From positions 2,410,698-2,474,697 of the forward strand of contig NZ_JAMXLE010000001.1 in assembly GCF_024055895.1 (NCBI RefSeq): a DNA stretch of 64,000 nucleotides, given 5' to 3'. This stretch comes from Rhizobium sp. L1K21. GTDB taxonomy: Bacteria > Pseudomonadota > Alphaproteobacteria > Rhizobiales > Rhizobiaceae. The notes under the pieces were generated by a model. It made no database searches, had not been told where the DNA came from, and saw only the letters and a list, made by a program, of their open reading frames with translations. Position 1 is the first letter of the stretch, and each line of letters begins with the position of its first letter. Of this stretch, positions 10,728-12,419 are shown piece after piece. Position numbers and translations under genes: made by a program.

Positions 10728-10821
10728 GATCAATGTCTCCGGTTTGTTCAGTATATATGGACCACAACCTGACTAATCAATCTTCGAATTTTTTTGCTTG
10801 GGGTCCAAAAAATTCTTGAAA

Positions 10822-10914
10822 ATGACAACGAACACCCTTAAGTGTCCCCTTGCCCAAAGTCGCACGTGCCTGTGGGTGTCCGCCGACCCTCGAACTGGAC
10901 AAAAGCAGTCCTAA
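10822..10914 (+). CDS. Candidate 30-residue leader peptide upstream of ornithine decarboxylase
   Basis: A short frame beginning MTTNTLKCPLAQ and ending GQKQS with TAA. It lies at the 5' end of the odc leader, upstream of all the stem-loops. There is no good Shine-Dalgarno sequence; the start is preceded by an A-rich stretch. In Escherichia coli a leader peptide (SpeFL) senses ornithine upstream of speF, which is a functional precedent without sequence similarity. The call rests on position and an intact frame only. Confidence 0.3.
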   Translation: MTTNTLKCPLAQSRTCLWVSADPRTGQKQS

Positions 10915-11262
10915 GGTGAGGTCATCGGTAAGGTACCTGGAACTAACCGCTCCAGTCGCTCTTCCGGCCAACCGGAAAAGTGAGGACATCTTGAAGCAAC
11001 GACGGTGCGGGCCTTTCTAGTGTCTGCCGGCTTTCCAACAGCCGGGGTTACGAGATGAGGCACACATCTTCATTGCCGGAAGTGCGGTTGGGACCACCCC
11101 TCCAATCCAAGGCAGACAAAGCGAATGATCGCGCGGATTTTCCGTGTGCTCGTTCAAACGCCGTGTAAGCGTTCGTAAAAGGTTCCGGGGTCTCCACCGG
11201 CTGGTTCCTTCGACGATCTCTGACACCCTTTGTCCTACCGGCTTTTTGCCGGAGAATTTGAA
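10915..11262 (+). promoter_or_regulatory. Structured 5' leader of ornithine decarboxylase (speF-motif-like)
   Basis: About 350 bases without a gene, rich in base-pairing. Stem TTCCGG/CCGGAA lies at 10962-10977 and CCGGCT/AGCCGG at 11027-11045. A long-range 8-bp pairing joins TGTCTGCC (11021-11028) and GGCAGACA (11111-11118). A hairpin CCGGC-TTTTT-GCCGG at 11238-11252 lies just before the Shine-Dalgarno region. The element ACCGGCT occurs twice (11196, 11237), so alternative pairings are possible. A conserved cis-regulatory speF RNA is known upstream of alphaproteobacterial odc genes, and the position fits. Identity with that Rfam family is inferred, not tested. Confidence 0.6.
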
Positions 11263-11288
11263 CCTTGGAACTCAGAGGAGATCCGACC

Positions 11289-12419
11289 ATGACGCAGCGC
11301 ATTATTGACTTCTTCAAAACCCGCCAGCCCGAAGGCCCTTGCCTGGTGGTGGACCTTGATGTCGTTGAAAACAACTTCAACGCATTCCGCCGCGCGCTGC
11401 CGAACTCCTCGATCTATTATGCCGTGAAAGCCAATCCGGCGCCGGAAATCCTGCGCCTTCTCGCTGGCCTGGGCTCCAATTTCGATTGCGCATCCGTTGC
11501 TGAAATCGAAATGGCGCTCAATGCCGGCGCAACGCCGAGCCGCATTTCCTTTGGCAACACGATCAAGAAAGAGCGCGATGTAGCGCGCGCTCATGCGCTC
11601 GGCGTTTCCCTTTTTGCTGTTGATTGCCATGAGGAAGTGGAAAAGATTGCCCGCGCCGCCCCTGGCGCCCGCGTGTTCTGCCGCGTTCTCACCGATGGCG
11701 AAGGCGCTGAATGGCCGCTGTCGCGCAAGTTCGGTTGCGTGCCGCAGATGGCTGTCGACGTGCTTGTCTATGCCCACCAGCTTGGCCTCACCTCTTACGG
11801 TGTATCCTTCCACGTTGGTTCGCAGATGACGAAACTCGACGCATGGGATTCGGCTCTTGCTGATGCAAAGCGCGTTTTCACCTCGCTTGCCAAGCAGGGC
11901 ATCGAGCTGAAGATGGTCAACATGGGCGGCGGTTTCCCGACGAAGTACCTGAAGGACATCCCGACGGCGGAAGCTTACGGCCAGGCGATCTTTGGTGCGC
12001 TGACCAAGCATTTCGGCAACCAGATACCGGAAACCATCATCGAACCGGGCCGCGGCATGGTCGGCAATGCGGGTATCATCAAGTCGGAAGTCGTGCTGAT
12101 TTCGAAGAAGTCCGACAATGACGCGCATCGCTGGGTCTATCTCGACATCGGCAAGTTCGGTGGTTTGGCCGAAACCATGGATGAGGCCATCCGCTATCCG
12201 ATCCGCACAGACCGTGACGGCGACGACATGGAGCCTTGCGTGCTGGCTGGCCCGACCTGCGATTCGGCGGACGTCATGTATGAAAAGAACATGTATCCGC
12301 TGCCGATCTCGCTCACCATTGGTGACGAGGTTCTGATCGAAGGCACAGGTGCCTACACGACCACCTATGCGGCTGTCGCGTTCAATGGTTTTGAACCGCT
12401 GAAGTCCTATTGCATCTAA
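11289..12419 (+). CDS. odc: Ornithine (lysine) decarboxylase, PLP-dependent, alanine-racemase fold
   Basis: A 376-residue enzyme of the eukaryotic-type ODC family that turns ornithine into putrescine; some alphaproteobacterial members also use lysine. The PLP lysine is in IYYAVKANPAP (K47). HVGSQ, GGGFP and EPGRGMVG for phosphate binding are present, and the active-site cysteine lies in GPTCDSADV near 327. A strong GAGGAG precedes the ATG at 11289; the frame extends eight codons upstream into the Shine-Dalgarno region. The long structured leader implies post-transcriptional control. A GNAT gene follows 210 bases downstream. Confidence 0.95.
   Translation: MTQRIIDFFKTRQPEGPCLVVDLDVVENNFNAFRRALPNSSIYYAVKANPAPEILRLLAGLGSNFDCASVAEIEMALNAGATPSRISFGNTIKKERDVARAHALGVSLFAVDCHEEVEKIARAAPGARVFCRVLTDGEGAEWPLSRKFGCVPQMAVDVLVYAHQLGLTSYGVSFHVGSQMTKLDAWDSALADAKRVFTSLAKQGIELKMVNMGGGFPTKYLKDIPTAEAYGQAIFGALTKHFGNQIPETIIEPGRGMVGNAGIIKSEVVLISKKSDNDAHRWVYLDIGKFGGLAETMDEAIRYPIRTDRDGDDMEPCVLAGPTCDSADVMYEKNMYPLPISLTIGDEVLIEGTGAYTTTYAAVAFNGFEPLKSYCI

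Follow-up and report, generated by a model that had tools for sequence, protein, structure and literature searches.

Leader control of the ornithine decarboxylase gene is known from SpeFL (speFL) of enterobacteria, and the locus described here, in Rhizobium sp. L1K21, raises the question of whether the leader of another such gene works through a peptide as well. An earlier note, made from the letters of the window (the whole stretch of 64,000 nucleotides analysed here), had proposed a 30-codon regulatory peptide followed by an RNA attenuator, and had presented this order as a new version of the SpeFL logic. As set out below, the leader RNA found in the window is an ordinary representative of a type that is known but still unsolved.

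The gene downstream, odc (11289..12419, forward strand), starts with the ATG at 11289 and encodes an ornithine decarboxylase-type PLP enzyme matching Pfam PF02784 (5e-57) and PF00278; against NCBIfam, every match was under its family cut-off. The window was placed in the Rhizobiaceae by named odc relatives (best 80 of 237 loci, 86-91% identity). The same neighbourhood order, namely DUF1007, LysR, leader, odc2 and acetyltransferase, is found in S. meliloti, where odc2 is annotated as an ornithine/lysine decarboxylase. The S. meliloti record that carries odc2 (CP090106.1, our locus L203) is labelled pSymB and is 3.72 Mb long, a label that may be wrong; a 2008 paper, in its entry for this locus, put odc2 on the chromosome beside SMc02983 (PMC2573895).

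Two Rfam families in one leader

Scanning the whole window with cmscan returned two Rfam matches above the cut-off, ar45 (RF02347) at 10852-11016 on the forward strand (153.8 bits, E 2.3e-35, cut-off 40 bits) and speF (RF00518) at 11025-11181 on the same strand (80.8 bits, E 4.1e-18, cut-off 37 bits). Each is present in one copy in the genome. The earlier note had placed the known alphaproteobacterial speF RNA at this position and had suggested the Rfam model as a check, and here it was right. The window speF precedes an ornithine decarboxylase-type gene as judged by Pfam, and the downstream gene named in the speF section of the 2005 paper is of the ornithine decarboxylase type, COG0019 (PMC1273637). 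The claim of a structured leader was also sound, as the whole leader folds better than its dinucleotide shuffles (z -2.8, 0/100 as good) and the ar45 part better than its shuffles (z -2.7, 2/200 as good), but the first half is Rfam ar45, which had been missed. The leader spans 437 nt 5' of odc and has three conserved modules: module 1 (ar45), module 2 (speF) and module 3, a hairpin described below.

The two families were surveyed at E <= 0.001 in 297 genomes of the order and 385 of the class. In the order, 127 genomes gave an ar45 match, 113 of them above the cut-off, and 145 gave a speF match, 118 of them above it; the class gave 14 (13 over) and 15 (13 over), of which 3 and 5, respectively, overlap the order set, the window genome included. 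When pooled, 138 genomes have ar45, 155 have speF and 134 have both, and in 133 of these 134 the two lie on one strand, 6-12 nt apart. The gap is 8 nt in 104 genomes, 7 nt in 16, 9 nt in 11, and 6 and 12 nt in one each; a promoter would not fit into 8 nt between the modules. The lone exception to adjacency, G052, has a weak speF match on another contig. All 21 genomes with speF only were fetched, and 18 of them hold an ar45 module with an insert between GCACGUGCC and GCAACGAC and a U-tract after it; the others have a diverged module (G044), are cut at a contig end (G279) or are without both module and odc (G033). Among the four genomes with ar45 only, module 1, its U-tract and odc are present in three (G089, G186 and G264), module 2 being unscored there; G554 looks like a chance match. 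A second, weak speF match of 27.8 bits, below the cut-off, was seen in one genome of the Rhizobiaceae on a contig other than that of the main match (G265:C30:408282-408384).

Matches were found in 158 genomes besides the window genome. Of the loci, 136 were fetched by RNA match, and odc lies downstream in 134 (79/80, 39/40 and 16/16). The 80 Rhizobiaceae loci were excluded as evidence for odc following the RNA, since they had been selected via odc itself, as the best 80 of 237 in similarity to it. By these comparisons, a single conserved leader has speF at one end and, at the other, ar45, which catalogues mostly treat as a small RNA.

The 2005 paper (Corbino 2005) had already implied as much. 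Its "extended speF element" is described as conserved from near a putative start site, across a stem into which four further stems are inserted, and then over about 80 nt (PMC1273637); as far as that description goes, the stem with its insertion matches module 1 and the 80 or so conserved nucleotides match module 2. The Rfam model RF00518, in contrast, covers only the second part of the leader. Rfam RF02347, known as ar45, SmrC45 or SmelC706, has the same sequence and ends as module 1 and is catalogued as a trans sRNA, whereas here, in every genome that allowed both to be looked at apart from the one weak exception, it is connected with speF and odc. The 2008 paper has, in the entry concerned, a single element "smrC45 (speF)", of which it says that it "may be independently transcribed" (PMC2573895), and a 2020 review lists smrC45/SpeF in its table (PMC7143759). 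Later reports treat ar45 as a separate sRNA (PMC7717549, PMC12403871), and the second of them calls its functional role "unclear". In the literature searched, which stopped short of the 2012 family survey, we found no statement that ar45 is, as a rule, the 5' module of the odc leader or its attenuated product.

Transcription start and the proposed peptide

A core promoter is predicted at 10815..10843 (forward strand), with a -35 box CTTGAAA at 10815-10821 and a -10 box around 10837-10843. A TTG stands 34-36 nt upstream of the probable +1 in 198/198 leaders, and by column conservation the 93 Rhizobiaceae have upstream boxes TTGATT and CTTATCT in common. The -35 box reads CTTGATT in relatives against CTTGAAA in the window, and the -10 of the window deviates from the family consensus; because it is poor, a sigma-70 consensus scan of the window gave zero promoters on both strands. 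An inverted repeat, GAACACCCTTAAGTGTCC, noticed on the minus strand, covers the window -10 at 10830-10847, at the place of CTTATCT in relatives; it is a possible operator. Within the spacer of the promoter, the bases of GAC at 10824-10826 are kept in 96, 100 and 86% of the 93 Rhizobiaceae, which is unusual for a spacer.

The position of +1 is inferred from two published S. meliloti lengths. SmelC706 occupies the interval 3105298-3105445, or 148 nt, in a review table (PMC7143759), and SmrC45 is given as 181 nt by TAP-RACE with a single mapped 5' end, its 3' end having been assigned, not mapped, to the final U behind a hairpin, in the account of that RNA in PMC2780559. In S. meliloti strain Ak57 (L203), counting from GCCC, the last U of GGGCCUUU is reached at 148 nt, and +181 is the second U past hairpin P1 of module 2. 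Since both lengths fit a start at GCCC, they suggest that +1 is its G, at 10852 in the window. In the alignment of the 93 Rhizobiaceae, conservation rises abruptly to about 100% at 10852 and not at the proposed ATG.

The 30-codon frame at 10822-10914 (forward strand) is open as described. Its ATG at 10822-10824, however, sits between the -35 and -10 boxes, within the core promoter and 5' of the probable +1. A start codon is found at the aligned place in 35/93 Rhizobiaceae and is missing in 58/93, where the triplets are 46 ACG, 8 GCG, 3 TTC and 1 TGA; the 35 comprise 24 ATG and 11 GTG. The frame is therefore not kept in related leaders. Neither is its phase relative to the RNA fixed, being 0 in 67 and 2 in 26 of the 93. 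A point in favour of the peptide is that 23 of the 24 leaders with ATG, the window among them, share one phase, but this is explained by the nearly invariant RNA downstream, which carries the open frame along. The translation of 10822-10914 has no match in Pfam or NCBIfam at E up to 1, and with its start upstream of +1, absent from most relatives and variable in phase, the frame was rejected as a peptide gene.

Alternative leader frames were also searched, and none keeps both start and stop, either in the 93 Rhizobiaceae or across 27 families. Nine columns upstream of the odc ATG have a start codon in at least 80% of the 93 Rhizobiaceae; eight of these are GTG/TTG triplets, and the ninth (window 10979) has ATG in 72/93 and TTG in 4/93, the window itself reading AGT. 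Frame lengths vary widely at all nine, with 21-43 distinct lengths each. The nearest alternative was the frame from this ninth column, an ATG in module 1, and it was rejected with lengths ranging from 13 to 496 codons. An ATG frame of at least 6 codons that is preceded by a Shine-Dalgarno sequence occurs in 4/27 families. A conserved, transcribed leader open reading frame of the SpeFL type was thus not found, and in this the window leader differs from that of SpeFL, though both represent leader control of an ornithine decarboxylase gene. As far as such alignments can tell, the leader encodes no peptide, and since the start codon apparently lies inside the promoter, the proposed peptide is very unlikely to be made. 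The peptide-plus-RNA attenuator lost its novel part along with it.

Conserved structure within the leader

Module 1 (10852..11016, forward strand) begins at the probable +1 and can close on itself, GCCC at 10852-10855 pairing with GGGC at 11009-11012 before a U-tract at 11014-11016; folded alone, its minimum-energy structure is the Rfam structure. The four 5' bases GCCC are present in 192/193 leaders, a count that is partly by choice because 80 of these leaders were anchored on GCCC, and two leaders outside the 193 (L238 and L239) have GUCC instead. These two belong to a lineage that combines a very short ar45 module, of about 57 nt, with the GUCC 5' end. The U-tract after GGGC has 6 U in 85 of the 193 leaders, 5 in 32, 4 in 2, 3 in 67 and 2 in 6, one leader being unmatched. 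It thus reaches 5-6 U in 117/193 and is short in the Rhizobiaceae, with three U in the window. A consensus terminator scan of the window did not call the module 1 U-tract, because the tract is short and is preceded by a helix that closes over a long range instead of a local hairpin. A perfect palindrome, GCACGUGC, stands at 10862-10869 and is found in module 1 of 27/27 family representatives; it could allow copies of the RNA to pair with one another.

Pairing was tested at the family level with one leader per family label, using shuffles that do not model the tree. In 27 families, helix D of module 1 forms 5.70 of 6 pairs against 5.09 when shuffled (0/5000), and the stem of P1 5.26 of 6 against 4.08 (0/5000); both tests are mildly favoured because the registers were the best of five for D and the best of twelve for P1. 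Helices A-C hardly vary and gave no covariation. Beside the covarying helix, GCAACGAC is kept in 198/198 leaders and GCACGUGCC in 193/198. P1 is the hairpin with which module 2 (11025..11181, forward strand) starts; it lies at 11027-11045 on the same strand and has UCCA in its loop. UCCA is present at the place of P1 in 197/198 leaders, within a 45-nt search window that was chosen by position and does not make this a blind count.

Module 3 is a hairpin, H3 (11185..11204, forward strand), with a CCGG/CUGG stem and a loop that contains UCUCCA at 11191-11196. Its motif was counted in 193 leaders, 93 of Rhizobiaceae and 100 others. It is found in 90/93 of the former, and the strict form CTCCA[ACT][ACT] in 74/100 of the latter, against 6.2% of base-shuffled tails (the tail being the part after module 2); 3 and 26 leaders, respectively, are without the strict motif. 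The distance from motif to start codon is 60-93 nt in 62 of the 74 and up to 232 nt in the other 12. With the register fixed by the motif, the flanks mirrored around it reach 6.5 of 8 pairs, compared with 4.9 in shuffles, the maximum of 2000 shuffles being 5.34. At the family level, 22/26 non-Rhizobiaceae families have the strict motif, and the stem pairing was reached by 0/5000 shuffles when each family was represented by a single leader. Covariation was scored on 21 aligned families, namely 20 of the 22 motif families (f35 and f50 being left out) and f165 with a CUCCG variant. In this alignment, H3 scores 0.491, compared with 0.204 (sd 0.035), and sliding the register gives 0.07-0.17; CUCC is invariant and the CGU/CG flanks nearly so. 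The same alignment showed nothing exceptional in further pair types (19 vs 17.2; 122/500) or in pairs changed on both sides (5 vs 5.0; 497/500). In the Rhizobiaceae the motif is nearly invariant and no covariation was detected in that register (4.21 vs 4.25). Variants such as those in L160 and L152 have a longer stem around a longer loop. Scored with the H3 model, the window hairpin gave 8.1 bits (E 0.25 over 701 bases), the best match in that stretch and a weak one. On this comparative evidence, H3 is a third covarying hairpin before odc. It falls in a part that was left without structure in 2005, when the authors, in their account of the element, assigned none to the last 150 or more nucleotides; here H3 and, in the Rhizobiaceae, a further hairpin (IV) are assigned.

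The pairings that had been read from the window by itself fared less well among its relatives. The 8-bp complementarity between TGTCTGCC (11021-11028) and GGCAGACA (11111-11118) exists, but in the 93 Rhizobiaceae it is complete in 37, 7/8 in 21 and 6/8 in 35, even at the best of nine offsets and with G-U allowed; GGCAGACA is kept in 91/93 while its 5' partner drifts. Two ACCGGCT copies, at 11196 and 11237, had been thought able to exchange partners. Only the window has two copies, 73 of the 93 leaders having one and 19 none. A different long-range partnership, confined to the Rhizobiaceae, is possible between GACAAAG at 11115..11121 and CUUUGUC at 11228..11234, both on the forward strand; the pair is identical in 82/93, has a GU variant in 4 and shows a compensated change in L096. 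Across families, no long-range helix was found from the end of module 2, which could be placed in 189/198 leaders, to the region before odc (observed 12.5, shuffled 13.1; 280/300 shuffles as good).

Hairpin IV, CCGGC-UUUUU-GCCGG at 11238..11252 (forward strand), is the five-T-loop hairpin that had been noticed just before the ribosome site. It stands at the place of a CUCC-N3-loop-N3-GGAG hairpin of relatives, so that a hairpin here is a family feature, found in 55/93 Rhizobiaceae, while the window departs from that form and is not among the 55. The inner pairs of the CUCC-N3-loop-N3-GGAG hairpin number 152 against 95.7 when shuffled, with 0/5000 shuffles as high. The Shine-Dalgarno region of odc follows at 11274..11281 (forward strand).

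How the leader may act

The reading that we lean towards, with somewhat more confidence than doubt, is that a single leader RNA with three modules and no peptide is made from one promoter (+1 at 10852), and that partial termination would give ar45 and read-through the odc mRNA. Some transcripts would end at the module 1 U-tract, next to the GCCC/GGGC helix that can tie up the 5' end, and be seen as the ar45/SmrC45 "small RNA", and the remainder would continue into odc. The adjacency of the two families, the two S. meliloti lengths and the covariation of H3 speak for this reading, and so does Bartonella, where ar45 is a short RNA of its own and speF is part of an RNA of more than 700 bases (PMC7717549). 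Candidates for the switch are a metabolite, Hfq, a protein that would sit on both hairpins with UCCA loops, or an event at the ribosome. Modules 2 and 3 would probably act on the read-through mRNA, perhaps with the CUCC loop masking the Shine-Dalgarno site. Such masking is unsupported so far, because the predicted openness of the site shows no clear difference from controls (0.23 vs 0.27) and H3 loops with GUCCA (L021, L068 and L082) keep a GGAG or GGGAG site unchanged. The termination step is weakened by the disagreement of the published 3' ends (148 vs 181 nt) and by the fact that RNA processing would look alike. A list of RNAs from Mesorhizobium huakuii also speaks against this reading, the RNA typed as speF there being 325 nt long and not 148 nt (PMC5596092). 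There may be a second promoter inside module 1.

One way in which this leader could work is as a metabolite riboswitch, and its likelihood overlaps with that of the general reading. Module 1, with its strongly conserved internal loops, would be the aptamer and the U-tract the terminator, binding being a prediction. The near-universal GCAACGAC and GCACGUGCC beside a covarying helix and the long U-tracts of most leaders fit this. Set against it, the ligand tests of the 2005 paper, as described for speF, gave no sign of binding for any of six compounds: ornithine, lysine, diaminopimelate, putrescine, cadaverine and spermidine (PMC1273637). The probe in that description, from A. tumefaciens, spanned -400 to +3. 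The leader is longer than 400 nt in 80/93 Rhizobiaceae, and 420 and 419 nt long in two Agrobacterium loci that are not the probe strain's own, so the first bases of module 1, its 5' strand, may have been absent; some leaders would have fitted the probe, that of S. meliloti being 394 nt. We regard a riboswitch as a real possibility, though on balance it is more probably wrong than right.

A protein that recognises both hairpins with UCCA in the loop, P1 and H3, and thereby controls termination or translation is a predicted alternative that could likewise be the switch of the general reading. The conservation of UCCA at P1 and of CUCC in the H3 alignment argues for it, the former with the reservation about its search window given above. 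A binder with further targets finds little encouragement in the genomes: a regulon search of one genome (G000) with the H3 model had a best E of 1.7, the odc-leader H3 not being among its 3 matches, and in 20 genomes there were no clear further sites, the other matches having E 0.02 or worse, with rough E-values and many near chance. The odc copy was the best match in 13 of the 20, several of which were in the training set, and had no match in 3. We consider such a protein rather unlikely.

A still less probable view is that ar45 is an independent, trans-acting and Hfq-dependent sRNA that shares the locus, with speF alone as the cis regulator from a start of its own. In the reports concerned, ar45 of S. 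meliloti (PMC2780559) and of Bartonella (PMC7717549) appears as a short RNA in its own right, and that of Methylosinus (PMC12403871) as an intergenic unit. In S. meliloti it binds Hfq, with which it co-precipitates (PMC2848018), as would also fit a trans-acting sRNA. An independent gene would be expected to have moved or been duplicated, yet ar45 adjoins speF, with odc downstream, almost without exception, and at a modal gap too small for a promoter. The SpeFL-like peptide with its attenuator, for all its open frame and common phase, can be dismissed as extremely improbable on the evidence of its start codon, phase and lack of relatives given above.

A wider form of the single-leader reading can be put forward, tentatively and as a whole no more readily than the protein binder. 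In all Alphaproteobacteria with ar45, this RNA would be the prematurely ended odc leader; pairing of the 5' end with the bases ahead of the U-tract would act as a termination switch, the twin UCCA hairpins P1 and H3 further along that mRNA would set translation through the same partner, and the ended piece would be reused as an Hfq-bound sRNA.

With the mistaken peptide lead removed, and two Rfam families shown to be two ends of one RNA, the idea that the orphan "sRNA" ar45 is a product of odc attenuation becomes directly checkable. The ligand tests of 2005 would be worth repeating with RNA that begins at the true 5' end. In 2020 the function of this RNA was still described as unclear, and it now also offers a defined third hairpin for mutation.
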